Shown piece by piece: positions 20,264 to 59,392 of a DNA stretch of 64,000 nucleotides; the stretch's first letter is position 1; each line of letters opens with the position of its first letter. The stretch is from Diphasiastrum complanatum (lineage: Eukaryota; Streptophyta; Lycopodiopsida; Lycopodiales; Lycopodiaceae). Where the stretch lies: NCBI GenBank assembly GCA_029204225.1, contig CM055097.1, positions 75,218,773-75,282,772 on the forward strand, given 5' to 3'. The translations under genes and the position numbers were made by a program. The notes below the pieces were generated by a model. That model made no database searches and was not told where the DNA came from. It saw only the letters and a list, made by a program, of their open reading frames with translations.

Positions 20264-21005
20264 TTGCCTCAATACCAATCAGTAAACATCTCTAAGAGAA
20301 TTCTTCAACCCTCTCATACCAAGATTTGGATATTGCTTGCTTTAGCCCGTATATGGCCTTGTTCAATCTGCACACCAACCCTTCTCCAACCTCAAAGCCT
20401 TATGGCTGGCACATGTATATTTCTTCATGCAGCTCCCCATTCAAGAAAGCAATTTTCACATCCATGTGACAAATTTCAAGATCATTCAATGTTGGCTAGG
20501 CCACTAGAATTATGATGGAAGAGATCCTTGCCACTGGTGCAAAAGTGTCATCATATTCTATCCCATGTATCTGGGAATACCCATTTTCCACTATCCTAGC
20601 TTTGTACTTATTCACATTCCCATCTGCGTCATATTTGATTTTGAACACCCATTTGGACCCTATAGGCTTTTTCCCTTCAGGCAATTTGACCAAATCCCAA
20701 GCATGATTTTTCTCTATTGAATGCATCTCCTTGATCAGTGCTTCCTTCCATTTGTTCCAGTCCATGTTTGCTGCTGGTTCTCTGTAGATGTTGGATTCTT
20801 TTATCATCTCATCTGTTATCAGGAACACCATGTCCCTGAATTTCCTTGGCGTCCTCTTCGTTCTTATAGACCTCTTGGGTTCGACTTCCATTGGCTGCTC
20901 AACTATTAAGTCTTTCCCTTGCTCGGTGATTCCTTTCTCAGCGACCTCAATTCTGTCATTGTGTTCACATGGTTTGGGTGATTCATTTAGCACGAGAATC
21001 TGCAA
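20264..21005 (-). pseudogene. Copia reverse transcriptase
   Basis: The frame includes DWNKWKEALIKEMHSIEKN, WDLVKLPEGKKPIGSKWVFK, KYKARIVENGYSQ and DDTFAPVARI, the canonical start of a copia RT. Below 20500, in another frame, it continues with MDVKIAFLNGELHEEIYMCQ, GFEVGEGLVCRLNKAIYGLK. The DVK Asp of the first RT motif is present, but the YVDD motif is not reached before the element ends. Frame changes make it non-functional. It follows the integrase of the same element upstream. Confidence 0.85.
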
Positions 21006-22392
21006 TTTTTTATTGTTTCTTTGTTCATTCTCCTTCTCTGCATGTCATGCATCTTCCTCATAGAAAACGACATCCCTGGAGATATAAGCCTCATTTTGAC
21101 CTTGCATGATATATCCTGTAAGCCTTGGCATCATCTGCATATCCAACAAGCATGCATTTGATGGACCTTTGATCTAGCTTTTTCCTGTTCTCAGTTAGTA
21201 TCAGACTAAAAGTTGTACATCCAAATGACCTTAGGTAACTTAGGGTTCTTTGTGTCCATGCCACTCCTCGTATGGTGTCTTTCCCTTCAAAGCTTTTGTT
21301 GGTGACCCGTTTATGGCGTGTACAATAGTGTTGGCAGCCTCTACCTATAGCAATTTTGGTATTTCCCCATCATGTTCCCCATAGTGCAGCATACATATGA
21401 CTTTCTCCATAATCGTTTTGTTTTTTGTGCTCTGCAAGCCCATTTTGTTGTGGCGTGTATGGCATTGTGAACTCCCATTTTATGCCATGAGTGTTGCAAA
21501 AGTCGTCAAATGCATTACTCCTATTTCCCCCGCCATTGTCTGTCCTAAGTTTCTTTACTTTGCATCTTGTATAATTCTCAACAAGTCTCTTGAAATCTTG
21601 GAAAGCATTGAAGGCTTGACTCTTACATTTTAAAAACTCTATAAACACCATCCTAGAGCAATCATCTATAAATATGACATAGTATCTTGCCCCCCCTAAT
21701 GGCGTTACCTCCATAGGCCCACACAAATCAGAATGAACCAGGCCTAACAACTGGTGTTCATGTTTTCCCTCATAACTAGCAAACGGCCCTCTAACTTGTT
21801 TTCCATACAGGCAGACATCATAACTCGCAATATCGGAATTGAAATCAAAGTCAAAATCTCTCACTAAATTCCCTTTTGCTAGACCTCTTGTGCCAAACAT
21901 TATATTTCTTATATTTCTATAGTAGCAACACAGGCAATCTCTCTCTTTTTTGCAAAACCATCTACCTTGTAAAGTCTCCCCTTTCTGTTCCCAATTGCTA
22001 TAGAAAAACCATGAACCATCTACCTTGTAAAGTCCCCCCTTTTTGTTTCCAATTTCTATAGAAAAACCATCAACCATCAGGCTACACTCTTTTTTGCTAA
22101 ACGTGATTTCAATACTAATATATGTTATGTTACTAACTAATACAAGGTTCTTTGCAATGTCAGGCACATGCAATACTTCACTAAGTATAACATGTTTCAC
22201 TTCACTTAACTGTAGACATACAAATCCTATCCCAACAGCAGTAATGACCCCTTTGTTACCCACAATGACCTCCTTACCTCCTGCAATAAGCTCATAGGTG
22301 ACAAAGAAGCCTTTGTTATATGTCATATGGCTGGTGGCCGCAGAATCTAGATACCATGATGGATCCTCGTTGCTTTTGCATCCCCTCAGCAA
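21006..22392 (-). pseudogene. Copia protease-integrase
   Basis: The frame 22392-21370 begins with the protease signature WYLDSAATSHMT, then the strand pattern ending LHVPDIAKNLVLVS. It goes on to integrase: HEHQLLGLVHSDLCGPMEV, YVIFIDDCSRMVF (first Asp), LRTDNGGG (second Asp) and TPQQNGLAEHKKQN (Glu). GAG-pre-integrase histidines are disturbed by a tandem duplication at 21961-22076. Below 21370 further integrase C-terminal sequence occurs in broken frames. All three catalytic acidic residues are present, but the copy is degraded. Confidence 0.85.
21961..22076. repeat. 58-bp tandem duplication in copia pol
   Basis: Two adjacent copies begin CTACCTTGTAAAGTC and end GAAAAACCAT(G/C)AACCAT. They differ at several positions and one copy carries a small length change. 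In the protein this repeats the VDGxSxFY segment between protease and integrase in two different frames. Confidence 0.85.
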
Positions 22393-32009: not shown

Positions 32010-35000
32010 TTAAACAGCAGTCAAAGGCCCAAACAATAAGCAACCCCTAGAAGGGGGTGCACTATACAAAAAACTATAGGACTCACAGCACGCCATACAA
32101 GGTGGCAGTCCAATATGTCTAAACAACAATAGCAAAATATACAACAAGGTGCAAACAAGCCATCGTCGAAAGAGGTGATGAAGAACCATAAAAAACCTGG
32201 TGATTGTGCACCAACCATATGAGTCATAAAACTGCCAATCTACACAAAAGCCAGAAGTGAAGTAAAGAACATGCCCAAGTAGGTGGATCTCCCAGTAGGA
32301 CAGTGTCAACCGTAAATGGGGCCAAAATGAACCAGCGGTCGAAAAGACGATGGACTTCCAACCACGGGTCTCTGGACAATTGAAAAAAAAGATGTTCAAC
32401 AAACTCCTCTTCGAACTTGCAGAGTGGAGAAAGGTGATCTGGAAGAAAGGGCCATTTAACCATGGAAGGAATTGGTGAGGATGTGGTAGGCTAGGTATAT
32501 GCGCTTACCAATAGGGAGCGAGCAAACAATCTTTAGTCTTTTACGTGACATGGTAGGAGAAACAGAACGTGACCAAGCCTAGTTACAGAAGTCAAAAAAA
32601 AGAGAAGGATGTCGACAAAGGTGAGAAGCTCAATAGCCGAGAAGGGATTGGTCAAGAGAGGGCTCCCACCCATCAGATTTGGAAAAGAAGGGGCAAATCC
32701 AAGGCCCAACATTAGAGGAGTTATAAATCCAAAAGGACCCTTTGTAAATATTCTTTTTATATTTTTTCTCAAAGTTTTCTTACACATGGACCAATCAAAA
32801 CAGTCAAATTTGAAATCTACGTAACGTAGCTCATAAAATTGGAAAAAAAAAAGGTTTTTTTGATAACTCTATGATTCGCCGTCGAAGGCAGCCCGCAAGC
32901 ATGCATGACATGCTATCCATAGTATAACATGCAATTTATCATTAAAAAATAGTATAAATTTTTAATCGTAGCTCCAATTGAGACAAAAAAAAATTATATC
33001 GTTGGAAAGTGCTCGACAAGAGCTTTTCAACGGTATCCTAGATGACCTACTTTTGAGCTACCATTTGAAAGTTATAGTAAATCAAAGTTTCTAAAAGAAA
33101 ACTCAATATCGAATCTGTGCAATCATAAGGTACCCTCTCACTAAGAAGGTGCTCTATCCATCCACATAAGTGATATTTGGTTAAAGCGTCCTCTATTTTT
33201 GTGCACAGAAGAGGTATTGGGTCTTTTCAAACTTTTGTCTATAATTTTTAGACAGTTGCTCGGAAGTAGGTCATGTAGGGTGTCGTTAAAAAGCTCTCGT
33301 CAAAGCTCTCGTCGAGCACTTTTTTCAACGATATAATTTTCATCTTAATCGAAGCTATAGTTTATAAGTTATACTATTCTTAATGAACTACAAACTGTAT
33401 ACATAGAATGGTTAAGCATCGAAAATAGTGCGGGAAAAAATGAAAAAGCATTTGGGCAGAAAATGAATTTATCCTGGTAATTTACATTAATAAACTTGTC
33501 AATCTATGTGGCATTCCTTATAGGATTTTTTTTGGATTCAGAATTTCTCTAATGGGCCAAGGACGAGGCAAAATTAAGGAGCAAATAAAGACCTTGAGAA
33601 CTAAAGAGCTGACATAAGGGCACGTGGATGATTTGGCTAAGCGTAAGTAGCCCCTTGCGGTCTAATGAAAGAGAAAATGTGCGATCGAGAAAAAAAAAAG
33701 GGGGAAAAGCTTGGTGAAAGAAAGAGGAGGTCCAGATGGAGTCGTTTGATGGAAGGAGCAGGGGGATTGGTCCAGGAGAGGAGAGGTGAAATTCCAAGAA
33801 AAGAGGCCAAATTTTTGAGGATAAAGGGTTCCTTGAACCTAAAGGAACCACCAAAGGACAGCAGCACAAAGAAAGAAGGAGAAGGTTGTAGAAGGGTGAG
33901 GGTAACTACGGACAAGGCCATGTAGTGAAGGAGAAAGAAATGCCAATGATGAGAGGGCATGACCAGGAAAAAAAAAGCGACGAGGACAAGGGAGTTGTTT
34001 TTAACAGCATCATCATGGATGCCCAGACCACCATCAAGAGGCAAAGTAGTACACACAGACCAAGGAAGAAAGGGGCATTTGACATCAAAGGATTTTAGCC
34101 AAAGAGCTATGGAGAAAGCAGGAGCAAGCAAAAATAGAAAAGAAAAAGGCAGGATAAGTAGGAAGAATATGATGAGCAATTAGAACCCTGGAGGCAAAGG
34201 AAAAAAAGCGGGGGTCCCAAAAGGCCAACTTGGAGGCGAAAGTTTGGAAGAACCAATCAAAACGTTGTCGGGGAGTAAGGGGAAGACCAAAGGGAGAGCT
34301 AAGCAAACGAGTAACCATGCCATGGGGCACCAGACGGATGCCGAGAGCAGAAACCCAAGAGAGGGGGGGGGGGGGGAGTAATGAGGATGTGGAGCTCCAA
34401 CTTCTCCTTATTCAAAAGAGAAAAAGAGCAGTAACAAAACTCAAGGAAAACTCGAAGAAGGTGGAGAACATACGACTCTGAAAGGAGGGAGAAAAGTGTG
34501 ATGTCATTAGCAAACAACTGGTGAGAGAGCAATCCCAAAGGACGGTGGACGGGAGCAACCAAAAGAAGGGATGAGGCATGGAAAAGAGCATGAGAAAGAG
34601 GCTCAATAGCGATGGCAAAAAGGAGGGGAGACAATTGACAACCAAGACAAATGCCGCACTTGGGGAAGAATGGAGAGGAGCGACACCCATTGAAAAGGAG
34701 AGTGGAAGAAGAAGACGTGTAGAGGGCTCAAAGAAAAGAGCAAAAGGAATGATAATGGCCCAAGGCTAGGCAACTAGCTAGAATGTAGTCCCAACCAATA
34801 CGATCAAAGGCTTTCTCAGGTCAAAACGAAGGATCAGAACAGGAGTAGAGAAAGCAGTAAGAGAGTTAGCAAAGGACCAAACATTAAGAAGAGAGTCCAT
34901 AATATTATGGCCTTTAATAAAGCCAAACTGCTCAAACGACAAGACAGAAGGCAACAAAGTGGAGAGTCGTAGGTCATGGCTTTAGCAAGAATCTTGAAAG

Positions 35001-43354: not shown

Positions 43355-44098
43355 ATGGATTCCCAAGGGAAAGCCAGTCCTATCATGGACAAGCTTGATG
43401 GAGCCAATTACCATCTGTGGAAATTTAAGATAAAAACTGTACTAATGGCTAAAGAATTGTATGACGTTGTTACAGGTGTAGAAGGGAAACCCGATGCAGA
43501 TGACGCAACAATCGCCAGATGGAAGCTGAAGGATGGAAAGGCTTTCGCGTTGATCATCCTCAACATCACAGATACCCAAATCGACCATTTATCCGAGGCT
43601 CAGACATCGAAAGAAGTCTGGGACATCTTGAGCACACTATATGAAGTGCGAGATATACCTTCCAAGCTAGATCTCAGGAAGAAATTCTACTCCCTCAAGA
43701 TGACGAATGGTGATTCTCTACAAAATCACATTAATCAATTCAAGAACCTGCTAAGACAAATGGCCACTATCGGATCTGTCATTGACAATCAAGACATAGT
43801 GATGCAATTGCTTACAAGCTTGCCAAGCTCTTATGACAGCTGGATGATGATCATCACGACTCATCTAGAATTGACTCTTTCGAGAGTCATTACTATGTTG
43901 TTGCAGGAACACACGCGGAGGAATGAAGCCTCAAGTTCTTCAGCTGATTCTCACGCTTTATACACCAACAAGAGCATGACTAAGCAGAAGAAGAAGAAAG
44001 TCCCGAAGCAATCCAAGCCAGACCATAAACCAGCACACCACAAAGAAGAGTCGAATCCGCAGACGAAGAAGAAGCTGTTCTGCAGATACTACAAGTGA
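43355..44098 (+). pseudogene. Copia gag
   Basis: Start MDSQGKASPIMDKLDGANYH, then LWKFKIKTVLMAKELYDVV, KLKDGKAFALIILNITDTQI, SKEVWDILSTLYE and LLTSLPSSYDSW: the standard UBN2/gag-polypeptide pattern of plant copia. It ends at a TGA inside the zinc knuckle (CRYYK, stop, NNHEIQDC), where the second Cys has also become Tyr. The upstream leader is about 145 bp. The product would be a gag without its nucleocapsid domain. Confidence 0.85.
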
Positions 44099-44590
44099 AA
44101 CAACCACGAAATTCAAGACTGTCGGATACTACAAACAACGAACAACAACAAGGGGAAGTCAAATCAAGTGGCAAATGTAGCTGCAGAAGCTCCACATCCT
44201 ATTCAAGAAGCGGATCATGATGCCTTCATGACCAACCATCAAGGAGCATCTGGCGACAGTTCTTGGTTCCTGGATTCCGGAGCCACTCAGCATATGACTA
44301 GCCTCATTGGCTGTTTCGAGTCCTATACACCTTATAGTACCCAGAAATATGTCCACCTTGGTGACAATAGCACATAGGCTATTAAAGGTGAAGGCACTTT
44401 AAGATTAAGCTTTGCCAATGATCAGTCCAGGCTACTTTCTAAAGTCCTTTATGTACCAAATTTATCTACGAATCTACTCTCTGTAAGCATAATCACAGAT
44501 CTATGACACAGAGTAGAATTCGAATGTGATCAGTGTAAAGTAGTTGATAGGACAGGCAAGATCCTAGCCCTGGGAAAGAAGCATGGATAC
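44099..44590 (+). pseudogene. Copia protease
   Basis: In the frame 44168-44377 the signature SSWFLDSGATQHMT contains the active-site DSG. It is followed by the HLGDNST strand, then an in-frame stop at 44376. Beyond it KGEGTLRLSF and VLYVPNLSTNLLSVSIIT continue the protease domain. It is non-functional through at least two stops. Confidence 0.85.
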
Positions 44591-45839
44591 TTGTACAAAT
44601 TGAGTCATTGTTTTTCTGACTCTAGTCAGGCTCTCAGTACTTCAATTCATTCAAATAAAGATTTACTTTGGCATTATAGACTTGGTCATTTAAATCATGT
44701 TGTTGTACAACGAATGTCTAGACAATCTATTGTTTTTTATCTCGACTATCCTCGCGAAAGAGTCAAGTTATCTGTCTGTCAAGACTGTCTATTGTTAAAC
44801 AGACTAGGAAACCTTTTAAATCAAGCCATTAGCACATTGCTAGAGGATTGCTAGATGTTGTACATTCAGATTTTGTGGCCGGATGAAAAATCCTTCGCTG
44901 AAGGATGCCAAGTATTTTATAACCTTTATTGATGAATTTTCCAGAAGGACCATGGTGTATTTTATAAAGAAGAAATCAAAAGCCTTCAACTGCTTCAGAA
45001 TCTTCAAGGAGCACGCAAAGAAGGAGACTGGAAGGACGATTAAGGCCCTCAGGTCAGACAACGGTGGAGAATATATCTCTATTGAGTTTAAGGAGTACTG
45101 CCAAAGCCAAGACATTGAGCAGTAATTCATCACTTCTTGCAGTCCTCAGTCTAATGGCTTAGCCGAGAGGAAGAACCGTACTCTGGTTGAATCTGCCAAA
45201 TGTATGCTATCACATGCATCGTTGCCTAAGAGATTCTGGGCTGAAGCTGTCTCCACTGCAGCTTACGTCAATAACGGATGTTCAACCAAGGCCCTCTCAG
45301 ACAAGACACCCCACGAGGTGTGGACAAGTTCTAAGCCTTCTTTGAAGAACCTAAGAGTGTTTGGGTGCATTGCTTACGCGCAGATCCCAAAAGACACGAG
45401 GAAGAAATTGGACTTCCAAGGTCTCAAGACCATCCTAATCGGATGTACTTCATTTGATAATACTTATAAGCTATGTGACCCTGATACCCAACAAGTATTG
45501 TATAGCCGAGATACAGTCTTCATCGAGGATCAGTTCGTCGACCTCAAAGGCAAGGATGTTGCTCAAGAAGAACCCTCATCACTTGTCGTTGACACGACAG
45601 TCCGAGCTTCTGGCTCAGGCGTGTCTATTGTCGACCCACTTCGAGACAGCAAATCAGACGAAGATGTTGCTGCTACCCAGCAACAAATCCCAGGAGCGGT
45701 TCTTCAGTCGAATCCTCCCAGAAGATCAAGCCGAGTGCGCACACAGCCCACAAGATATACTCATGAGTCTATCTGTCTCTTGATACAGGAACCGATGATA
45801 GTCGAAGAGGCACTCAGCCAACCAGACTCTGATCTCTAG
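44591..45839 (+). pseudogene. Copia integrase
   Basis: Zinc-binding start LWHYRLGHLNHVVVQRM with CQDC; core YFITFIDEFSRRTMVYF (Asp 1), ALRSDNGGEYIS (Asp 2) and SNGLAERKNRTLVE (Glu). The C-terminal block has TAAYVNNGCSTKALSDKTPH, LRVFGCIAYAQIPKDTRKKL and the SRDTVFIED motif. Stops at 44853 and 45123 and a frame shift break the reading. It is followed by a short Ser/Asp-rich linker to RT. Confidence 0.88.
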
Positions 45840-46920: not shown

Positions 46921-47883
46921 TATTTATTTACAATTCAAATTCCAAAGAACTCCCACTAAGTCCTCTCAACTTAGTGCTTGAAATATTATCAAGAATTTTT
47001 TTTTTTCAGCTGAAGAAGTTGACGACCCATCTTTCTCATTAGAGTCTACTAGCAAGTTCTCATCCGAGCCGACATCCAATGTTGAGAGAAAATTTTGTTA
47101 TGTGGCTTTGCTACGTTGAAGCCGAGTCAAAGATGATGGTTGTGCTCTTAAATCCAAGACGTTCTTGCAAAATAGATATTGTTGACTTTCATAACATTAC
47201 AGGAGTTCCAAGGCCCAAAAGGGCTGTCTAAGAAATGCCACGTAAGAGAGAGAAAATCGTCAGATTTTAAAACTTCGATCGAGTTTTTGGTCTGCCTGCA
47301 CAAATCCGATGACTTGACCTCACTAGTAACGTATGTAGTTAACTGGAAGTTGGGTAGCCGCAATGCGTGGGGTCCATACTTCAAGATTCTATTTTCTACC
47401 ATTAACTAACATAACTTCTCATGTAAATGCAAATCGTATTGCACATCAAAGTTTTCTTTCCATCTACACAAAGCGTTCACATCAATGAAAAACAGTCTTA
47501 TCGATCTGAAAATCATGGCAAGAAACTTTGAATATTTTGGATCACAATGAGCGCCAACGTGAATCTAAATTTTTGCAATTCTGAAAATACAGAGTGTGTT
47601 GGATCAAATTGAGCGGTAAGGTTATTTCAAACTTTTGCAATTCAAAAATTTGCGATTTCAACACACATCTATTGAAAAACTATTTTGCTTATTTTGCTCA
47701 TAACCGCGAAGCATTGATTTTGCATATCAAGCAAGAAATATGGAGTGTGATGGATCAAAAAGAGCACCAAGGTCATTTCAAACTTTTCCAATTAATTTTT
47801 TTTTTTAATTAAGATGAGTTTTAATAGCTTACAAGATATATAACAAGTTGGTTTTCTACTAGATTAATCTATCGATTATTAAG
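46921..47883. repeat. Unassigned stretch with three 50-bp degenerate direct repeats
   Basis: The units at about 47530-47580, 47591-47642 and 47745-47794 share the pattern TGGATCAAA(T/A)GAGCG followed by TTTCAAACTTTTGCAATT. Overlapping frames at 47148-47409 on both strands have no motif. No gene is supported. Confidence 0.55.
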
Positions 47884-50118
47884 ATGTCTAAATATCATCT
47901 CCATATTGATCTTCCCACAAAATATGCTCCACTGTCGAGAAAAAATCTGAAAGGATCCACCTTACCAGCTCACCAAAGGACGGAAGACAGGAAACATTGT
48001 GATCTATGGGTTGATGAAAGTTAGTAAAATGCAACATCCAAATTTTAGATTGGTCACACAACTCATACTGTTTTTGTGTGAAGAGTACAATGGTCTATTG
48101 GGTTATTGTGAAAGATTGAAAAGTTATGGCATTAGTAATTCAATGAAAAAAATCCATTGTTTGGAAAATATGTTGAATGGTTTGCTTACTGACTATTGAG
48201 AAAGAGAAACTATTTTTTTGCAAACAAAAGAAGAGAATGAAATCTTGAAGATAGATAATTCTCATTTGCAAGATATTATATTAAACCTTAACCAAGAAAC
48301 TGACAATATGAAACTAATTGTACAAACATTGCATACCTCATATTGTCAAATATATGTAGAAGTAAACACATTACGGAAGAAAATACTAAACAATAAGCGA
48401 AAAAGAGTTATTTTAAAAAGTATTGACGAGCTTTCAACAAGTGGGGGTCAACGGAAAAAAAGAATATATGCTTTCAAGTAAGATTATGTTTTAAACTATT
48501 CATGTGTTTTGTTTCATCTAGCACTCAATGGTTGTGAATTGTTTTTTTTCTAAATCTTATTTTTCTTTTGCAGATCAGCTTTAGTCACCAATGAAAATCT
48601 GAAAGACAAGGACATGATTGGAAAGTCTTTGAGTGCAGTACTTACAGCCAAGTCAACAACGAGTCTACTTGGAAATCAACGATATTCTCGAATCAAGTCC
48701 AAGATTGCAGAGGCCCTTATGGGCGAAGTCGGCAAGATCATTGACCGAAAATTGATACAGGGGAGTCCGAAAATAATATTTGGTGGTTGGCAGCTTTCCA
48801 GGTTTAAATCTATTCTATTGAGTACTAGCAACTAATTCATTTCAAGAATTAATGGTTTTGTGTTTTAAGCTAATATTGGTTTGTTATTATAGGTCTGAAT
48901 TCAATTCTCCTAAAATAGTTCATGATTTTGTGTTTCAAACAGGTTTTAAAAGAAGATCATGACATTCTATTTTGGATTTTTAGTAAAACAGAATATCCAG
49001 AGATAATTAAGAATCATATGAGCGACACACCACTCAATGTTCCTGGAATAAGTGATTTTAAGGTGGAATGGCATTTGGCTGGAGACCTGAAGTCGTTGAA
49101 GTGCATGTTCAACATCTCACGTGGAGCAAATTCAAAACATCCATGCCTCTATTGCATGAAAACTACACATGACATGTCGAAGAGCATGAGAGTTTCAAGG
49201 GATATAGAAGATCCGACTTGGAAACCAGTATTACCGATTCCGCTTAAAAATGTTCACATTTGTACACTACATGGAGATGTTAGAATTATCGAAAAATTGA
49301 TATACCTTCATATTTGGCTTGCTTGGAATACTAAGCTAGAGTCATTAGCTAAAAAGGCAATAGGTCGATTGGAAGAAGTTTTATCAAAAGCGGGACTTCA
49401 TAAAGGACACGTTAAAATACAAAAGGACGAGAAGCTTTCAGGAAAAACGGGAAACATCCCATGCAAACCAAGTATAGGAGGATCCAAAGCTCGTCGTTTC
49501 TTATCAAATCATTCCGAAAAACCAACTAAAATCCAGTACTCAATTTGATAGATGTACTCAATGCCACAAAGGATTTTGAAGAAAAAGGAACAACGAGGAT
49601 TAAAAAAGTTGAAGTCTGGACAAAGCTTGACAACATGGTCAAATTGCTCAGAAAAGATAAACTATCCGATACTGATGTCCTACTAATTGAGAAATCAACA
49701 ATTGAGTTTGTGGATGCAGTTAAAGACGCCTGGGGTGAAGATCATATTATGCATTATATGGTAAATGTCTTTTCAATGTAACTAACTCTTCGATTTATAA
49801 TCTCATTGCACATATGCTAAATTTAAAATGATTAATATGACAATATTTGTATCTCTGATATTGCAGCACATTCTATGACATCATGCATCATTTTTTGCAA
49901 AAGCTTACGGCAGTCTAAGTATTTGGTCATCACAAGGAATGGAGAAATCGCATTGGCAAGCCAGAGCAGCATTTCATCGAAATACACAACACTCTAGAAC
50001 ATCTCAAAAAAATAGTTACATCATCCAGCTATTTCAATGGTTCTACAGGCGTATTCAAATCCGATATAAAACTAGACAACAAATTATCAGAAATTCAGAA
50101 AGACGTGCAAATTTATAG
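47884..50118 (+). pseudogene. Decayed spliced transposase-like gene
   Basis: Coding-like pieces: 47884-48024, 47999-48477 (coiled-coil-like, one internal TGA), 48574-48801 (after a GT-AG intron at 48478-48573), 48893-49548, 49545-49760, and 49867-50118 (after an intron ending TTGCAG). Key motifs are WHLAGDLKSLKCMFNISRG, CLYCMK, NVHICTLHGDVRI, and AYGSLSIWSSQGMEKSH followed by a helix with IIQLFQWFYRRI. The order Asp, Cys-x2-Cys, H-x-x-x-LHG, then GSL..W(S)SxGxE resembles RAG1/Transib-type RNase H-fold transposases, where the last Glu is catalytic; this is inference from motif order. Frameshifts near 48930 and 49540 and a TGA at 49876 show decay. An undescribed DDE family is the main alternative. 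Confidence 0.5.
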
Positions 50119-50546
50119 ACGAAAATAATATTGATGCAAGACTCAACCCATAGTAATTTTCATGATATCAGACGAAAAGAGTATATGTATTATATGGCAT
50201 CATTTCAAGTACAATGCAAGGCAAAATCATTGTTTCTCCTTGTCTTTAACGATCAGCTTTGTTGTGTGGTCAAGAAGAATTTTTTTTCTATCATATGGAT
50301 CTAGAAAATCAATGGTCTTCTTTTGCTCAAGTTGATGTATCCGGAGAAAATAGCTTAGGAAAAAGACCTTTTAGGAACTTCCTCAGATACATAGCCAAAT
50401 ACTTTAATGACAATGTCTCTCTTCGCAAAAATAATTTTATATGTATTTTGAGGGTATTTATGCCCGTTCGAGAAATAGGATAATGCTTTAATTGCCATTA
50501 TTATTGTCGCAACATCTGAAGAAAATTTGCTATGATGAATGCAAAT
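50119..50546. other. Intergenic stretch between convergent genes
   Basis: This lies between the 3' ends of the transposase-like gene and the minus-strand gene. The short frame at 50259-50483 carries no motif. No clear terminator or repeat is seen. Confidence 0.4.
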
Positions 50547-51822
50547 CTATTTATTTACAAAGCACTTCAAATAATTGGACAGGGATGAAATCCTTTGTCG
50601 TGATCCCTGGCCTTCCCTCAAATATCTCTGCCTTGTTACAAAGGCATCCACCTCAACAGTAGCCTATAAAATACGAGCAAAGGTCACATGTCTTGTAAAA
50701 CAAAATGACTATATTTGAATAAAAATATCATTAAGATAAAACCAGATTTACCTACTAGATCACGCTCATCAGCTTCAATAAGTGCAGCAGTATGTAGATC
50801 ATGACCAGCAACAATGGTCGTCAAAGCATTAGATGGACTAGTTTCCGAAGACTGTGACACATATCTGCTCCAGATTTTCAGAAATTCCTCCTCACCGGGC
50901 AAATTTGCCTGGTATGCCCTGCTTTCAGACATGATTGACTGCAGTGCTTCAGTCCCATCCATCCATTCATCTTCGTCTTTGTAATCAATAGAAGCACTTA
51001 GATCATCATCACCGTCGAGATCTATGAAGTCCTCGAATTCTTTGATGAAATTAGACAAAATTGATAATATTTCATCCTCCCTCAAATCAAAAACATCTCC
51101 AACATCATTCAGTGAGAGGTATGCGACACTATTCATGTAATACACTAGCAAATCGAGGAGAGTCTTGGTTTTGTCATATGGATTCACGTCAGATAAGGAA
51201 GAAATGGACAATGCACGAGACTTGGTTGGGTCGTACATTGAAACCAATCTTGCCTCCTTGTCAGCACCCCAGACGTCATCAACAATAGCTGACTCTGATA
51301 TCACAGAATCAGTTGATGATGAGGCACCCTCAATGTTAAGCCTCGAAGTTCTTGTCTCATTAGGAATAAGAAAAAAAAGATAAAACACAAAGCCCATGCC
51401 TTCCTGCAAAAAACGACATGATCGATTGTGCTGGTCACAATGGACCACACGTTTAAGATCACTCACGATTTTCGTGAATCGTTGGTTGTGGCTTTGCTTT
51501 GAAGATGGTTGGGCAAGTACCAGGTCATGGAAATGGATAAATCGTAGATTATCCATGATCAACATAGACTGATTCAGACTATCATAATACTCCTTATACA
51601 ACACTGAAAAATATGATTTATATTCTGATTCAAACCTCTCAATATCAAAAGACATATTAAATACGTCTTATAATGACCTATGTAGTTACCAACATCGGAT
51701 TCAACGAGGAAGGCGTGCAAAGCAGAATCAAAAGTATTAGAGGATGAAGCGGCCATCTCGAAAGTATGACCAATATGGCCGAGTATCGCTACGACGCGGG
51801 GTGGCATGGAGTCAGAAGACAA
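50547..51822 (-). CDS. Three-exon gene of unknown function, about 365 residues
   Basis: Exon 1 is 51822-51690, exon 2 is 51603-50756 and exon 3 is 50663-50547, ending in TAG. Introns are 86 and 92 bp with GT donors and AG acceptors (TTTTTCAG, TTTTATAG), and all three exons join in frame to about 365 residues. The start is either MSSDSMPPRV or the downstream MAASSSNTFD. Mid-protein is acidic and Ser-rich (DLDGDDDLSASID, DEDEWMDG); LRFIHFHDLVLAQ precedes it. No enzyme motif is recognised. It is transcribed away from the histone-like gene and shares its upstream region. An intact spliced frame amid decayed elements suggests it is real or recently active. Confidence 0.6.
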
Positions 51823-51900
51823 TCATGACTTCCTCACGTGATGGCGATATTGGCGAATGACCTGATATCGGAACGACGCGAGGGATCTTAGATCGTCTAG
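51779..51900 (-). repeat. Opposed upstream repeat, left arm
   Basis: On the minus strand it carries ATATCGCCATCACGTGAG, CTGACTCCATGCCAC and CGCGTCGTAGCGATA. The same elements in the same order occur on the plus strand at 52648-52720. The repeat overlaps the start of the minus-strand gene. Confidence 0.65.
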
Positions 51901-52114
51901 AATCTCTGAAAGATTCTCACATGGTAGCGATACTGCAAAGAAATAGAACTGTTCACACACAATGAGATATAGGGAGTGAAAATCCAAAACTTAGCGAAAT
52001 GTTTTAACTGATCAAACAACATTTATATAGCTAAAACCAAGAAAATCCAAGCCGTACACTCATCGATCCAACAACGGAATCAGATCTATGGCGCGTAGTA
52101 CAACCGTCCACACG

Positions 52115-52465
52115 TGCGAGACCACACGTGCTACAATACGCGTCAATCTGCCATTCGCCCACGTGCCCACACGTGCCAGAACACACGTCACTAAACCATT
52201 GGACCACGTGGACACACGTGCAAGTTTCACACGTGCAAATACATAGGTGTAGGTCCCACATGTCAGGTACTGATTGGGCCACGTGACCACACGTGCGAGC
52301 CTATACGTGCGAGAACACACGTCACTGATCCATTCGGCCACGTGTCCCCACGTGGGATCCCACACGTGTTGATCCAGATGTGCAGTTTTACATGTGCGTG
52401 TACAGACGTATGGTTCCACATGTCAGCTATTGACTGGGCCACATGTCGCTGGTATTCACACGTGC
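52115..52465. promoter_or_regulatory. Dense CACGTG (G-box) array in tandem repeats
   Basis: I count 13 CACGTG cores in about 350 bp, most as CACACGTG. They lie in tandem units beginning ACACGTCACT...CCATT (about 52182 and 52316, with a partial unit at about 52140). Units also share CCCACATGTCAG and GACTGGGCCAC. In plants CACGTG is bound by bZIP and bHLH factors. The array sits between the divergent minus-strand and histone-like genes, ending 15 bp before a TATA box. A regulatory function is inferred; it could also be a simple subterminal repeat of a transposon. Confidence 0.7.
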
Positions 52466-52479
52466 CAATTTTTCTCCCC

Positions 52480-52486
52480 TATATAA
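52480..52486 (+). promoter_or_regulatory. TATA box of the histone-like gene
   Basis: TATATAA in the context CCCCTATATAAGTCC lies about 300 bp upstream of the histone-like ATG and directly after the G-box array. The transcript start is expected near 52515. Confidence 0.55.
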
Positions 52487-52561
52487 GTCCATTCCCGGGG
52501 ATTATACAGGTTTTCGCATGATTTGCTAGCACGTTTGATTGCATCCATACGAAATGCATTC

Positions 52562-52775
52562 GTGATATCGCCATCATGCGAGCGACCTCCTCCCCATGCC
52601 TATTCCTTACACCCTCTTGCGTCATAGCAATATTAGCTTGACTTCCCCAGTATCGCCATCACGCGAGTCCCTGTCTCTCCCCGCCTGACTCTGCCACTCT
52701 CTCGCGTCGTAGTGATATCATGGTTAGAGTTCTCAGTGTCTCTTCTGCTGTGTCTCTGTCCTCGCGTAGTATAGA
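52562..52775 (+). repeat. Opposed upstream repeat, right arm, two tandem units
   Basis: Unit 1 (52562-52635) and unit 2 (52648-52720) share TATCGCCATCA.GCGAG, then a C-rich segment, then TC.CGTC.TAG..ATAT. A third partial copy (CTCGCGTAGTATAGATATTC) ends just before the histone-like ATG. The left-arm version at 51779-51900 is inverted relative to these. Confidence 0.65.
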
Positions 52776-52787
52776 TATTCGGCCTCA

Positions 52788-53282
52788 ATGGCTCGGACGA
52801 AGCAAACCGCTAGGCTTACCAGTTTCGTTCAACCGTCCCGTCCCCAGACATCTGAACCCGTACGTCCGCAAAGATGCGGTAGACCTAGCCGTCCATGGTT
52901 GAGGGACATCATGGCCTTGCAGAGGAGCACCAAACTTCTGATCCCGAAAGTAGCCTTCTACCGGGCTGTGAGAGAAGTTACACAAGACATGACCACCCAT
53001 CTGCCCTATGCAGTGAGGTGGAATATCACTGCATTGGAGGCCCTCCATACTACATACGAGGATTTCCAGACAAAATTGTTTGAGGATTTGATGTTGTGCT
53101 CCATTCATGGCAAGAGGGTGACACTGATGCCCAAGGACATGCTTCTTGTCATGAGGCTTCGAAACACCTATGACAACATTTTTAACTGGATTCACACAGA
53201 GGCAAGTTCGTGGAAAGGGGCCTGTCCCACCCCGCAAAAAGAGAAAGCAAGCACAACCCAAGCGTTCGCAACCCAAGCCTAG
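52788..53282 (+). CDS. Divergent histone H3 variant, CENH3-like
   Basis: The 164-residue frame begins MARTKQTAR, identical to histone H3, then a divergent Pro/Arg-rich tail without the usual Lys9, Ser10, Lys14 or Lys27 contexts. The fold follows: alpha-N WLRDIMALQRSTKLLI (37-52), alpha-1 AFYRAVREVTQD (56-67), a loop with four extra residues (MTTHLPYAV), alpha-2 RWNITALEALHTTYEDF to KLFEDLMLCSIHG (77-108), then KRVTLMPKD (109-117) and alpha-3 MLLVMRLRN. Loop-1 lengthening, Arg-Trp before alpha-2, LLIP and VTLM recall plant centromeric H3; MPKD is canonical. Cys104, His107, Arg110 and Asp117 match H3 positions 110, 113, 116 and 123 of the H3-H3 interface. There is no intron and a 38-residue C-terminal extension. 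An upstream ATG at 52720 opens an overlapping frame. Retrocopy, captured gene or pseudogene remain possible. Confidence 0.8.
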   Translation: MARTKQTARLTSFVQPSRPQTSEPVRPQRCGRPSRPWLRDIMALQRSTKLLIPKVAFYRAVREVTQDMTTHLPYAVRWNITALEALHTTYEDFQTKLFEDLMLCSIHGKRVTLMPKDMLLVMRLRNTYDNIFNWIHTEASSWKGACPTPQKEKASTTQAFATQA

Positions 53283-53304
53283 GTCTCCCAGCTCTTCACC
53301 CTGA

Positions 53305-54643
53305 CCTCCTCCCATTAGAAAAGATCTGGCTAGTACATCCGCAATTCCACTGGTTGAGAGTCCTCCCGTAACCCCTGATCTTCAAGTGCACGATTCTCCT
53401 TCTATACATGAGGATGACCTAAATACAGTGGTAGACATGATTGTTTCTGATTTTGATGCAACTGATAAAGAGTTGCACATCAGACTTCCAAATGAACCTA
53501 AAGACACATTTTTTGATTATGAGAGGTACATTGATTTTGACCTGTATATAGCCAAGAAAATAAATGATCTCGAAGCGGAGTTTATGTTTTGTATAGACGA
53601 TATTAATTTTGCAATGCATATCAAAGACCCACATTGTAGGGAGCTAAAAGAGAAGACCTCATATATCTCAGACACAGTAGTTGAATCTGCTTGTGCATAC
53701 TATGTACATAAATATACATATACAATCACGAAGGAGATTTTTGTTGTATCTCCATTTTTTGGGCATCTGTTGAATAAAGAGAGGAAAGCCAGAAGGCTCT
53801 TCAGGCACACCAACAAAGAGGCATCAATGTTCATCATTCCATATTGTTCAAAGTAAGATAGTTTCTTCTTGTAATATCTGTATTCTGTAAGATTTTTCTT
53901 TTGGAAACTCTTATAGATTCTAGTAATTCATTGCTTGTCTCTTTCTGACAGCAAACATTGGAGTGTGCACGCCATATTCATGAAAGTGGATTCAATTGGA
54001 AGCTGCACACTTGTGTGCATGACAATGAATTCTTTGCATGCCACCCATTCCATGATTAAATCCATGTACAAAAGGATGGTGGAGCTCTTCCCCAGGCCGT
54101 ATGGGTTGGTTGTAAATACTAACATAGAGGTTGTTGATGCAAAGGTAAAAGGAATCTTTTTACGTATTTTATTTGCATGATGGCATGTAGTTTAGAATTA
54201 TATTGAATTATAATCTAACAAATTTTCGCTGTGATTTCTCAGTCTTCGCAACAAGACGATGCTTTCAACTGCGGATGGTATTCAATCTGGAATGTTAAAT
54301 CGTTCTTGGATTTGTATATGGTGCAACCTCCAGATGCTAGTATCCGTGAGGTATTTTTTTCAATGTGGTAGTATCATGATGATATATTGTTAACTTTGTG
54401 AATTTATATATTTTAAAACATTGGCTAATACATACATACAGTCGATATTTTTTTTTGCAGTTCCAATGTCCTGAGGTATCAACAAATGCGATTCATCAGT
54501 ATCGGCATGAAATGTTGGAAATTTTACTATCATGTGCAAGGCCCTACAAGCATGAAGGTGCCTCGGATGAACCTGCCAGGAGATCTGTGGATGAGGTTAC
54601 AGTGCTCGAGGATATGCCTCAGGCACCTTTGATTGAAATGTAA
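53305..54643 (+). CDS. Ulp1/C48 SUMO-protease-like gene, spliced
   Basis: Exons 53305-53852, 53952-54144, 54243-54350 and 54461-54643 join in frame across GT-AG introns of 98-110 bp. C48 proteases cleave SUMO from target proteins or its precursor. Visible motifs: KHWSVHAIF with the catalytic His, MTMNSL where the usual Asp-Ser-Leu has Asn for Asp, and QQDDAFNCGWYSIW with Gln six residues before the catalytic Cys. Thus His, Gln and Cys are kept but the triad Asp appears replaced. The reading frame extends upstream to 53200 across one TGA at 53302, encoding a basic stretch (PPRKKRKQAQPKRSQPKPR) that looks like a nuclear signal and overlaps the histone-like ORF in another frame. Ulp1-like genes are often carried by plant Mutator and other DNA transposons. 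Confidence 0.75.
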
Positions 54644-54854
54644 ATATAGTTCCGACAGACACATAGAAATATATCATCACATGATGATCCATAGAACAAT
54701 AGATAGGCAAATAGAAAGTGGGCTATTACTGAATGCCACAAATATATTATATCGATTTCAAAAAGAATGTACATTTTTCAAAATACTAAATACAAATTGC
54801 TTGATGAAATCTTGAAGTCATTTGAGACTTCTTTGTATTCCTTTTTTTTTTTAG

Positions 54855-55228
54855 AAGTACATTGATGTTGCTCGTCTATCATCCCAATTTATAAGGATGA
54901 TGAGCGTGTATTTGGAGAGGTTTCTCAAGGAAAAGGAGCGATCATGAGAATGAGTGAGTCCTTCAAGGAGAAGGTGAATAATTTTTGCATTCTTAACAGC
55001 GAAGAAATGCAAAAGTGGATTTTGAGATACAAAGAGGCCAAGGCTCATAAACAAACCGCTCGAGCCACTTTCAAGAGAGGGCATAGAAGACACCGCCTGA
55101 CCTCGCCCTTCTACCCAAGGACATGACACTTCATTGGCTACGTGATGCCCTTAGAGAAGCCTCAACAAACAACGAGGAAGTAGTAGAGAGAGCGAGAATC
55201 TTGCAAGGCGGTACGATTTTCATGTAAG
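54855..55228 (+). pseudogene. Probable further exons of the Ulp1-like locus
   Basis: After a TTTTTTTTTTAG acceptor at 54854, coding-like frames follow: YKDDERVFGEVSQGKGAIMR, MSESFKEKVNNFCILNSEEM, KWILRYKEAKAHKQTAR, then after an apparent one-base frame change PPDLALLPKDMTLHWLRDAL, REASTNNEEVVERARILQGG and a stop at 55226-55228. Composition is helical and charged. How it joins the preceding exon is unclear, because that exon already ends in TAA at 54641. It may be an alternative terminal exon or a decayed separate gene. Confidence 0.4.
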
Positions 55229-55487
55229 ATATGTACATCATTCACATGTTAAGCTATTTGTACGTGTAATTTTCTACATGTTTGTTATATCCCTAACACA
55301 TTTTGTTCTTTTTAATCTTCATCCACTTTTTATCCAGTTCTGGAGTTTTATTTGTGTTTCTACAAAGTCTGCAAAAATACTCGAGAATCACTCAACAAGT
55401 GGCTTTGACATATCGGACATCATCCGACATATCGATGTCCCCGACAAAAGACTTCGGCCATATCGATGAAAGACACTTATTGTTCCA
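55229..55487. other. Short unassigned stretch
   Basis: Contains CATATCG three times within 55410-55465 as part of an imperfect palindrome (GACATATCGGACATCATCC, CGACATATCGATGTC). No gene is seen. Confidence 0.4.
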
Positions 55488-56168
55488 CTTGTTATGAAGC
55501 TAAAGACTTGCCCTAACTGTTTTGCAAGTAAATTTCTGGGAAGTCCTAACTGGATGGATGCCAACGCATATGGCCAATTGGCTATTGCGATCAGTGACCT
55601 AATAGTTGTCCTATTGGATACCGTTAATTGCTTAGTATAAATAGATGATCATCAAAGACTTCTATAACTCTCTTTCTCCTTAAAAAGTTTTTTTCAGAGT
55701 TCATTAGAGTACTGTTATTCATGCTTATTGCTTATCAGCGAGACTGAGTTTTTAGTTACATAGAGATAGCTTAGAGTACGTTGCTTCTATCCGTAATTGT
55801 TTTGTGCTCTCATCATCTGATTTGTACATGCTACTTACTGAATCATGCTCACAAGAATGATTGCTTCTTTGTTCAATATTGATAGGCGTAGTCAAGAATG
55901 TATGCTTCTCTGTGATAATTTGTAACTGATAAATCTCTTGTTGTCTTGTCTAGTATATTTAGTACTTCATTGTTTGGCTACAAAATCGGTTTAGTGCTAA
56001 CGATTTCAAAGTTGGTTACTAAAAGATTGAACGTGACTTGTCATTATGCTTTGTTCAATATTGATAGGCGTAGTCATGCATTAGGAAAGAAGGCTAAATT
56101 TCGCTGCGCTCAATAAGTCGCTCACACTCTTCGACTTGTTGAATCGACTCACTTCACCTCCCTCTTTC
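55488..56168 (+). repeat. Probable solo copia LTR
   Basis: Ends CTCCCTCTTTCCAACA like the LTR at 7957, has a TATA-like AGTATAAATAG at about 55635, and shares CTTCATTGTTTGGCTAC and GGCGTAGTCATGC-like phrases with the LTRs at 42216 and 46138. No PBS or gag follows. A perfect 28-bp direct repeat (55867-55894 and 56049-56076) lies within it. The 5' boundary is approximate. Confidence 0.55.
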
Positions 56169-56479
56169 CAACACATCATGTTGCTCAATGTTGATCCAAC
56201 CTCCAACCGTGTGCTCAACCATGTGCACTCCCTCGAGCTATATATGTGTATCATGTGTCAAAAATTCAAATTTTTGAACCTTGCAAAGATCTACCACGAC
56301 CTACATGCAGGTTGCACACTACCAAATTACTCTCAATCTACTCGGATTTGATGAGCTATGAAACACAATTTGGAAATAGGCAAGAGCTCTTGTACACAAA
56401 AAGTAATCTAAGGCATGAATTGGCTAATGCAAATAGGCCTGCTACTCACTCGTGGGAACATGCTCCACACATGTGTGCT
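56169..56479. other. Unassigned stretch after the solo LTR
   Basis: Frames at 56136-56503 have no recognisable motif. No PBS is present at the LTR edge. Confidence 0.35.
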
Positions 56480-57340
56480 TTACATATGTACATTAAAACG
56501 TAAAATGATCAAGCTGAATTTTGCATATTTTTCACACATATAGCTTGATAAGTGTGCTAGTTCTCTCCAAATGTTAAGTAGCCAAGAATAGCTTTTCAAG
56601 TGGATCCTTTGGCATGCATTTGTTGAGAAAACCAACCAATAAACTTGAGATTGCAACAAGATCACCGTAGCCATGACAAGACTTCCTTGACTGAGAACCA
56701 TTTCCAAGTACCAAGAAGAGCTTTCCACCATTTGAGCTCTTTTTCCATTGATTTCTTTTATCCTTGAAGAACATGATTGATCCCAAAGCTCCTCCTCCTT
56801 GAAAATAGCTACAACTCCATGAGAAAATCAAGAGTCCTTCTTGACTCATAAGGATCACAAAGATCCATCATCATGTTACCAAGATCTTGAGAATTAGACA
56901 TATCGAGATTGGCAAGACTATGTATGCTAAAATGGCAAAGAGTTTGCATAATATCTTTATGCTTGATTTTCATGCTAATCTCAAATCTAATGAGGCTAAA
57001 TACATCATTATGAATATGTGTGTCCTTAAAGGAAGATTCACTTATTCTCATAATGTGTTTACGAATTGCCTCACAACATGTAAAAACAACCATCATCCCA
57101 CAAAATTGACATACCTAAGGAGAGGAAAATTCAATGCTACTCGACTAAACAATGACACAACATCAAAAAATGTATTAATGAGTTGAGCATTTGCTAGTGA
57201 AAAAGATAAACAAATATCATGCATAGCTTGATGAGGTTTTATGAGGGATATCCTTTGAAAATGAGGAGTCGTTTGGATAATTAAAATTACATTTTTTTGT
57301 CTAAGTGCACCCATTCTTACCACCCAAGGCCAAGTCCACC
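56480..57340 (-). pseudogene. Fragment related to the 442-residue ORF family
   Basis: The frame 57096-56809 encodes KHIMRISESSFKDTHIHNDV, FSLIRFEISMKIKHKDIMQT, which aligns with LLMRISEASKVDTYIHKQVV, SLIEMEMPFDFNIRKIMPS of the ORF at 13750-15078. Lower frames (56858-56574) include NGSQSRKSCHGYGD, and 57323-57093 lies upstream; they are broken. This establishes a repeated gene family in the window. Confidence 0.6.
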
Positions 57341-59392
57341 ATTGTTTAAAAGTTGGGAATGTTTTAAGGGTGGGAATGCTACTTAGTGTCCTCGATTTAA
57401 GAGCTCAACGTCAAAGGAGAAACCACCGTTATTTAGTCATTCATTTTTTACTAGCTCCTAGAAGATGTACTTAAACACGACAATAGTATCAAACTTGCTT
57501 TTAATTTTTTGACATTATGTAAATTTTCATGGAAACAAATCTTTGATGGATTTGTGATGATGTACCTCTAATAGAATGCAAGCCAATGTCACAAAACCAA
57601 TGATAGCACACTTTCAAATGATTTATGAGCTATCAAAGTGACATTAAGTACATTCATCTACTTATTGCCAAACAAATGACAAGGAACATATTGTCATTCA
57701 TTTGATTCAAAAAGTGTACATGCAGAGAAGACCAAGACTATTATAAACAAAGAGGGATTGTTGATATTGGGTGATTGAGGAGTTGAACCTCAACTAAGAC
57801 AATAATCTTCTCTTCCAAGTCACCCATCGATTTCAAAGAGCTGACCTATTGACACTCTTTGTATCAGCAGACAAACATTACATAGAGAGGTAGCATAGCA
57901 GAAGCCATAACATTGTTTTTGTCTTTATTCAACAATGACCTTCTAAATAATGAAAGTTCACTAGACTCAATGTAAAGTGAAACCCAATACTATAGGGAAC
58001 TAGCATATGAAACGCCATAATATTGTTCTTATGTCTTAGTTCAGCAAAAAATTCCTCACAAATGAATTAGTTACGATTGAAATGAACTTGACATGATTTT
58101 AAGGTAAAAACATTATCGATCCCTTGCACACAATATATCTTATGAAAACCCTTGCATGGGTCCACTCCCAAATGTTTTCAGGAGTTTAGTTGCCTGTTTC
58201 AAAAGAAACTCAGCTTCTCATTGTTTTGCCATGAAAAACCAATTTTGATCATGTGAGCCATTTCACAACTATATGGACATTTCTCTCCAATATGTGCCCC
58301 CTGTTAAAGTAAGTAATTTCATTCCATTCAGACCCATCAAGGGATGCCCAGGAGAGAGAAAATTTACATGAAAACTTTAAAACCTACTAATAAATTGCCA
58401 GAGTTCATCCTTACATGTCCACAACAACAAATAGAAAAAGCCAGAATCACTTTGTTGACGATACACCACCACTCTATAAATAAAGGCATCGTCCTGCATT
58501 AAGTTTATAATTATGAACACTCAATAGGTCGGGCTTTTATAATTGTATTGAACTAGACAAAGTTTAGCCAACTATTCTGAAGAATGAACATCCAAAAAGT
58601 TAAAACGTGCAATTTCTCAACGTTCATTCCCTTTAAAGCGCACACAAACTCCGTACACCAGATTGTAAACTAGCCACACTTTTAAGTCACAATCTTAATA
58701 CCAATGATTTCCATAAAGTATCACTTGATGTTATCAGGAGCTACCTGAGAAAGAAAGTTTTGAGCGCTAAAAACACGTATATTTGACTAATACAAAGCAC
58801 CGACCAATGATGTAATATGTTCACAAGATTGTAATTACATTTGGGATAGAAAATAAAACTGATTTCAGTTCTCAAAAAAATAGGTAGAAACTAAATGAAG
58901 TCTACTTTATATTCTTCCTTGACTATGATCTATAACCTCACTAATGTCAATTCAAATAGAGGTCAATTTTCCAAAATTTAGGAAGTCCATGTTCTGGAAA
59001 ACAAAATGGGGACATGACTGAAATATAAATATAAATATAAACGGAAAGGGCTTGTGGGAAATTATAGATTAGCTTGGAGATGGCCTTGAGGCACATGAGG
59101 TACCACGCTGCCTGTGCCAAATAGGTGAACTAGCGCAGAATTTTTAAGCCTGGGAGAAGTGCCTGATATCAACTGGTCTACCTCCCTGGAAAGTGGCTCA
59201 TATGCGTCGTCTACACCAAGTCGCAGTTCCCACTAGCTCTGCCTCAGAGTTTTGATTAGGAAGTTATCAATACCAGTGGTAGCTGGGAGGCTAAATCAGG
59301 TGCGCAAACCAGACAGTGGATGAAGTGGGTTATTGCACGCATTTCATAAGCTGTACTTAATACTTCCTATCTTGCAGGTGAATGTGATCTGG
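57341..59392. other. Unassigned stretch, 2 kb
   Basis: Both strands are largely closed by stops. A short minus-strand frame near 59215-59090 (LGVDDAYEPLSREVDQLISG) is protein-like but isolated. An ATAAAT run occurs near 59025. No feature is supported. Confidence 0.35.

Follow-up and report, generated by a model that had tools for sequence, protein, structure and literature searches.

DNA transposons that carry a histone H3 gene have been described in fungi. In Pyrenophora tritici-repentis, an H3-like ORF (H3L) is found between the terminal inverted repeats (TIRs) of a hAT element, beside the transposase, and there are 26 copies in the reference genome (PMC3538342). In Pseudocercospora fijiensis and its relatives, hundreds of H3-like sequences are present in hAT elements of ~9.5 kb (PMC6710886). 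Capture of H3 by transposons is already known from these fungal hAT elements (PMC3538342, PMC6710886). Ulp1-type peptidases are also known from DNA transposons: the VANC (KIU) genes of Vandal elements, some of which include Ulp1, counter silencing and induce hypomethylation of related elements (PMC13317346), and Ulp1 domains are found in Ginger1 and Mutator elements (PMC2836005). Viral single H3 histones provide a case in which a parasitic genome encodes its own H3 (PMC9145170).

Here we analyzed a stretch of 64,000 nucleotides from the clubmoss Diphasiastrum complanatum (contig CM055097.1, positions 75,218,773 to 75,282,772; hereafter the window), in which a preliminary description had reported an intronless, divergent H3 ORF with a CENH3-like core. 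Like P. tritici-repentis H3L, it is an H3-like ORF within the TIRs of a DNA transposon with a transposase gene; in contrast, H3L is fungal, sits in a hAT element, has near-identical copies and is a separate H3 ORF, and the accessible text describes no peptidase fusion and shows no long-term selection for it (PMC3538342). As in P. fijiensis, many H3-like sequences are found in a DNA transposon and the captured H3 is without introns; however, the captured copies of P. fijiensis are all RIP-inactivated and derive from the host canonical H3, with no peptidase fusion described in the accessible text (PMC6710886). The fungal H3L elements have a hAT transposase, whereas the transposase that we pieced together from clubmoss copies has no hAT Pfam match. 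Kaonashi/VANC-Ulp1 (Vandal, Mutator-like) and Ginger1 are likewise DNA transposons with an Ulp1-type peptidase, and the accessible parts of these papers describe no histone domain in them (PMC13317346, PMC2836005); compared to VANC and Ginger1, the Ulp1-like part of the clubmoss element is far more diverged and its transposase is without a Pfam match. Compared to viral H3, the clubmoss H3 is found in a chromosomal TIR element. In pattern searches of limited reach, neither the H3 nor the transposase had a relative in viral contigs and the H3 had none in phages, and we rejected a virus-borne histone. In the literature covered by our search, to which most subscription journals do not belong, we found no plant transposon histone and no such H3-peptidase fusion, and the word histone is absent from the accessible text of a 2026 review of plant gene capture (PMC13317346). 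As far as we found, what is new here is the plant case, the fusion to a peptidase-like domain and the evidence of selection on a transposon H3.

A family of TIR transposons that carries the H3 gene

We found that the H3 gene belongs to a large family of TIR DNA transposons of ~10 kb. The features of the window copy are as follows (positions in the window):

47195..54888, + strand, transposon copy with the H3 gene; has the 5' terminus and lacks the 3' part
47195..47224, + strand, 5' terminal inverted repeat; one base different from CATTAGAGGAGTT; matches the inverted 3' ends of L016, L017, L018 and L020
47860..50152, + strand, decayed DDE-type transposase gene (as read by motif and alignment), in pieces; limits approximate, mapped from L020
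50684..51655, – strand, acidic ORF; 323 aa, pI 4.5; oriented away from the H3 gene
52108..52486, + strand, probable promoter; CACGTG array and TATATAA at 52480, 308 bp before the ATG
52788..53282, + strand, reported ORF, an H3 domain (residues 1–126, to 53165) with a frameshifted, non-native tail
52788..53852, + strand, H3-peptidase gene, exon 1; the window copy loses the frame in the linker, with the N-terminal peptidase part open at 53305–53856
53952..54144, + strand, exon 2; holds the active-site positions HW and Asn and has GT-AG borders in this copy
54243..54350, + strand, exon 3, with QQ.....C (positions of the oxyanion Gln and catalytic Cys); from the splicing comparison
54461..54643, + strand, exon 4 with the stop codon; from the splicing comparison

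To define the element, we aligned twenty stretches of ~10 kb around other copies (L009–L028) to the window. All of them align to portions of the window from about 47193 to 54888, and only L009 continues past this interval. On the left, homology of the window copy to other copies begins at 47192–47195 with a sharp end starting CATTAGAGGAGTTCCAAGGCCCAAAAGGGC, outside which the flanks differ between copies, except in the clustered copies L023 and L025, which have the same left flank. At 54888 the window diverges, and 15/15 loci aligned that far have further common sequence (L009, which duplicates the window, and L023–L026, which end earlier, are not counted). In L016, L017, L018 and L020 the sequence beyond this point ends in an inverted form of the 5' terminus. 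The window copy belongs to this family as a member with a 3' truncation and a frameshift. The one complete element measured (L069 with L020) is about 9.98 kb long, as calculated from coordinates. We saw no evident target-site duplication in the few pairs of ends compared, namely those of L014, of L069/L020 and of a 310-bp pair of terminal repeats in L028. When we searched the 1.74-Gb genome for the 5' terminus with at most two mismatches, we found 415 places, compared to 0 for the reversed control; the 100 places listed of these 415 fall on all 23 large contigs. Among the origins offered by the preliminary description was a transposon-captured histone, and the TIRs, the transposase gene in the element and the hundreds of dispersed termini all support it.

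A genome search with the window protein gave 6,947 first-look candidates, and the 150 that were scored all had E < 1e-65, with stops present in many copies among them. The median pairwise difference between exon-1 copies is 6.8%. One copy, L009 (C6:71320300-71330200), is 99.97% identical to window 47968–57869 over the 9.9 kb compared and is found 4 Mb away on the same contig; the pair is either a recent segmental duplication or an assembly duplication. In protein databases, an annotated protein of D. complanatum, O6H91_14G014700 (P0001), is very similar, with 90% identity over 82% of the query, and the other 106 matches are H3-type proteins, mostly at 37–48% identity. A copy on C14 (L029, C14:7055948-7056412) encodes the same residues 1–126 as O6H91_14G014700, and a second place on C14 scores alike; the annotation lists a C14 copy of the transposon as this host gene.

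Some further observations concern the surroundings and the distribution of copies. By our count by eye, 27 of the 150 scored H3 matches are in two clusters on C3 (18.5–21.8 Mb and 29.9–30.1 Mb), mostly in a form that covers residues 1–130 and has a different end (L023–L025); the clusters look like local amplification of part of the element in a derived form. In the window itself, at 32710–33554, CATTAGAGGAGTT is followed by an imperfect inverted copy 844 bp on, with similar bases just outside both ends, possibly a short non-autonomous relative of the element. Fragments of retrotransposon gag-pol genes, copia-type by their domains, are found at 17084–22389 (– strand) and 43355–45836 (+ strand).

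To the left of the H3 gene, the element encodes a protein with the motifs LKLDE...KGQKL.RVS.T.MN.AL, EWHLAGDLK.LKC, PCLYCM and W.SQGME.SHW (SQGMEKSHW). A query pieced together from several copies has 31 homologues (E 6.7e-122 to 5.7e-48; 7,996 candidates scored), one of which is from the alga Klebsormidium nitens; we presume that the other 30 (sources lgn, ena, jgi) are mostly from metagenomes. When 16 of the 31 homologues (P0108–P0138) are aligned, every sequence has the D of AGDLK and almost all have the D of KLDE. The third acidic residue (E of QGME) is present in the query and P0108 only, the other aligned homologues being shorter. Neither a hAT domain nor any other Pfam domain matches the pieced protein at E 10, and by motif and alignment we read it as a DDE-type transposase, with no superfamily assigned. 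Open frames related to the acidic ORF are found in L013, L018, L020 and L022; this ORF has no significant Pfam match, and the ORFs of the right arm of the element have none either.

Between the acidic ORF and the H3 gene we found 13 CACGTG (G-box) sites within 354 bp (52111–52464), with 24 in the whole window as compared to 5.2 expected. Among 19 distinct copies including the window (L027, which has no H3 start, is excluded), 15 have at least four CACGTG in the 750 bp upstream of the H3 start, where the background is 0.14 per 750 bp, and 13 have an upstream TATATAA. The CACGTG array and TATATAA are probably the promoter of the H3 gene.

The H3 domain and its fusion to a peptidase-like domain

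The reported ORF has 164 codons and starts with MARTKQTAR. It had been called a divergent H3 with this start intact, and we found the same: the Pfam Histone profile (PF00125), the search proposed earlier as a check on this identity, gives a strong match to its protein (77.3 bits, E 1.5e-21; cut-off 26.4), and PDB H3 chains match it at E ~1e-21. The protein is 44% identical to Arabidopsis H3.3 (137-column alignment, tail included). With L072, a canonical H3 encoded elsewhere in this genome, its identity over 91 residues of the fold is 48%, in agreement with the earlier estimate that about half of the fold is conserved. The four extra residues noted in loop 1 were confirmed by alignment to canonical H3 and to a related copy, L075. 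The positions of H3 R69, R116, T118, H113 and D123 are preserved in all four H3 forms that we aligned, as is the position of R83 with the exception of Lys in L074. In the predicted structure, the core (residues 33–128) has the four H3 helices at a mean pLDDT of 87, and Foldseek matches this core model to nucleosomal H3 at TM 0.79–0.84 (best E 1.6e-7); the core is thus predicted to have a histone fold with an alpha-N helix. Of the 182 structure matches to the model of all 164 residues (pLDDT 68), 0 had E ≤ 0.001, and the 50 listed include no histone, as is expectable if the last part of the ORF is non-native.

In the tail of the window protein, residues 1–48 contain a single lysine, K4. A lysine is present at the K4 position in 56/56 readable copies, and Leu takes the place of K9 in 54/57; the tail of the window subfamily, as read from these copies, keeps K4 and is without K9. 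The lysine-poor tail is not universal, since 10/57 window-family copies have a lysine at residue 23 and L075, in which Pro takes the K9 place and Lys-Ser comes next (RPKS), has a further lysine near the start of the fold.

The H3 frame of the window stops at 53282, and a second open stretch, 53305–53856, is found in another frame. In L015, L021 and L028, a single frame of 345, 357 and 354 codons, respectively, is open through the H3 fold, the basic linker and a further domain up to a GT, and in L019 and L020 the frame is open for 310 and 330 codons. The H3 head, the Lys/Arg-rich linker and the peptidase-like domain are, by these reading frames, encoded as one protein. The 38-residue C-terminal extension of the preliminary description is a frameshift artefact: other copies read the linker on into the peptidase-like domain, and we rejected the extension as a real domain, as it is an out-of-frame reading of the linker in the window copy. 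The preliminary description read this frameshifted end as an extension and overlooked the peptidase fusion.

We compared splicing in 14 rows and located all six borders in 11 of them (the window and L009 are the same); seven of these 11 have GT-AG at all three introns and four have one non-canonical border. None of the spliced copies is open from the ATG to the last stop, and L028 is nearest to intact, being open to a stop in exon 4 with a non-AG acceptor in intron 2. The gene had been described as intronless, which is correct for the H3 part and not for the gene, which has three introns downstream. Intronlessness says little about origin, since the 13 best matches to AtCENH3 in the genome are all continuous too; the one of them that was read, L072, is a canonical H3. 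We rejected the proposed retrocopy, for which we found no positive support and given that canonical H3 is also continuous in this genome.

In the C-terminal part, the motifs follow each other as HW ... N ... QQ.....CG, with Asn at the usual Asp position. HW is present in 40/42 and Asn in 39/42 of the copies matched (3 unreadable), and Cys and QQ are each present in 17/20. When we aligned L028 to the catalytic core of yeast Ulp1, HW and QQ.....CG were in register, and the score was 67 as compared to 30.3 ± 4.9 for shuffled sequences, with 0/500 shuffles as good; shuffles as good were 1/500 for L016 and 6/500 for L012. The hhalign probability of the peptidase part against Ulp1 is 2.4. This part matches no Pfam family at E 10 (Peptidase_C48 included), has no significant PDB match and is matched by 0/393 protein-database candidates. 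We call it a divergent Ulp1/C48-like domain by its motifs, not a proven member of the family.

Selection on the fusion gene, deeper subfamilies and affinity to CENH3

To measure selection, we used 57 exon-1 copies chosen from the matches most similar to the window protein, so that counts among them are not a genome-wide rate. Stops in all copies had been named as a sign of residual similarity; we found no stop or frameshift in residues 1–126 in 37 of the 57 (minority-column insertions not counted). With CpG-aware expectations for 54 of the 57 copies (three near-duplicates dropped), variants found in four or more copies number 90 that change an amino acid and 74 that are silent, as compared to 112.5 and 51.5 expected, a ratio of 0.56. 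The same ratio is 1.03 and 1.17 in the two wrong frames, and for the H3 part alone it is 0.55 (p 0.009). In contrast, single-copy variants have a ratio of 0.92, which is near neutral, and amino-acid changes are depleted among common variants in the true frame only. Choosing copies by protein similarity inflates conservation and favors the true frame, and could lower its ratio; however, single-copy variants would then be expected to be low too, and they show little of this bias. The pattern is that of a gene maintained by selection while the element was active, with decay after insertion. Like the element, the fusion frame and the make-up of the tail, this selection is legible in the sequences of the copies.

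Deeper subfamilies of the element are also present. L075 (C13) differs from four window-family copies at 35–42% of fold residues, with pS of 0.67–0.78 (near saturation) and dN of 0.29–0.34. It retains MARTKQTTR, has no loop insert, and its frame is open for 527 codons. In phase with it, 0.9 kb on, L077 encodes the same N-terminal peptidase part (YIAKKIDKLGG...FVVPYCQ), which scores 28 standard deviations above shuffles against L028. A search with L075 gave 150 scored places, which by our own count fall into 92 at ≥68% identity and 58 at 54–65%; for many of the 58, the alignment begins at residue 1. A third form, L076, has no MARTK in the stretch read. Our tree unites the six transposon rows, among them L076, in a single group (98/82). 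The retention of MARTKQT.R and of the in-phase peptidase part across subfamilies near synonymous saturation suggests that selection maintained the fusion. The suggested new H3 class stands as a description of the sequence and not as a class of host histone, since it is a transposon class.

A fourth form, L073 (C6:51595100-51595680) and L074 (C20:13898900-13899520), is continuous, has a Ser/Thr/Ala-rich tail and ends right after the fold (in L073 with a stop after RRLRSERH); the two are 90% alike in the fold and have WLRDI or WLQDI in common with the transposon H3s. They are possibly a further mobile or host H3 variant.

The likeness to CENH3 in the preliminary description is real at several positions: LLIP, RW after loop 1, SMLC.IH..RVTLM and the lengthened loop 1 are common to the window H3 and Arabidopsis CENH3. 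As compared to plant CENH3 (Arabidopsis, rice and maize), the window H3 has MPKD as in H3, a four-residue loop insert, the peptidase fusion and the status of a multi-copy transposon gene. The tree groups the transposon H3s and L073/L074 with the three CENH3s against the H3s at 90/89, which does not reach the starred level; the tree includes only three CENH3s, has long branches and a short stem, and its bootstrap had not settled. We lean towards a CENH3-type ancestor for the transposon H3, on grounds that are suggestive only. We rejected a host CENH3 gene for the window copy, which is multi-copy and has TIRs, with canonical H3 encoded separately.

Possible functions of the fusion protein

The reading that we tentatively favor, while giving it something less than an even chance, is that the element encodes a fusion protein that acts on chromatin against silencing. 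The H3 head would pair with host H4, or readers of the H3K4 tail would bind it, and in this way the head would place the peptidase on chromatin, where it might strip SUMO or a related mark; a tail that is not methylatable at K9 would help the element stay expressed and mobile. From the sequences, we infer that the fusion protein may be incorporated into chromatin, act as a peptidase and counter silencing. The VANC genes offer a precedent, and the K9-less head suggests a route to a similar effect. In contrast, the lysines of L075 count against the simple form of K9-less anti-silencing, and the weak hhalign result with Ulp1, Asn in place of Asp, the lack of an intact spliced copy and the absence of MARTK in the stretch of L076 that was read weigh against the fusion-protein explanation, as do the residue-23 lysines of 10/57 copies, the peptidase part's want of a Pfam, significant PDB or protein-database match, the 6/500 shuffles for L012 and the end of L073/L074 just past the fold. 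Doubtful, in our estimate, is the bolder form, in which the element supplies its own nucleosome component: a K4-markable, K9-less H3 tethered to a deSUMOylase-like enzyme, driven by a G-box promoter and maybe derived from a centromeric histone, by which the chromatin of the element would resist silencing. Transposon silencing works through histone marks and, if the anti-silencing reading is true, an element's own H3, K9-less in the main subfamily, with a SUMO-protease-type domain would be a direct counter-attack on the host chromatin code. This would make it testable whether parasites evade silencing by supplying a histone rather than by blocking enzymes. The element family is also a natural, long-running mutagenesis of the H3 fold.

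The CENH3-like positions (LLIP, RW and SMLC.IH..RVTLM), the 90/89 grouping with plant CENH3 and the 27 of 150 scored matches counted by eye in the two C3 clusters would fit a protein whose CENH3-like head steers the transposition complex, or new insertions, to chosen chromatin (for instance centromeric or H3K4-marked) while the peptidase processes a partner. However, the listed 5' termini are on all 23 large contigs, the C3 clusters mostly hold the derived form of residues 1–130 and look like local amplification, and the CENH3 grouping is unstarred; we consider such targeting unlikely. We regard it as distinctly improbable that a single capture of an H3 fragment was followed by amplification alone, without a function for the element, like the RIP-inactivated hAT elements of fungi. 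The many copies with stops, the lack of a wholly intact spliced copy and the near-neutral single-copy variants (0.92) are consistent with a passenger of this kind, for which there is a fungal precedent in the accessible text (PMC6710886). Common variants, in contrast, have a ratio of 0.56 in the true frame only, and the fusion and MARTKQT.R are preserved between near-saturated subfamilies, with a frame of 527 codons in L075.

About as improbable is a decoy, in which the head titrates host H4 or H3 chaperones and the acidic ORF is a chaperone-like partner. The acidic ORF (pI 4.5) indeed points away from the H3 gene across the G-box region, but it has no recognized Pfam relative, and a decoy leaves the peptidase unexplained. 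An ordinary host H3 or CENH3 gene adjoining repeats is highly improbable and, for the window copy, refuted. In its favor, the annotation has a C14 copy as O6H91_14G014700, with residues 1–126 as in L029, but the hundreds of termini, the TIRs and the transposase, together with a canonical H3 that exists separately, argue against a host gene. In a clubmoss annotation, a transposon H3 can appear as a host gene.
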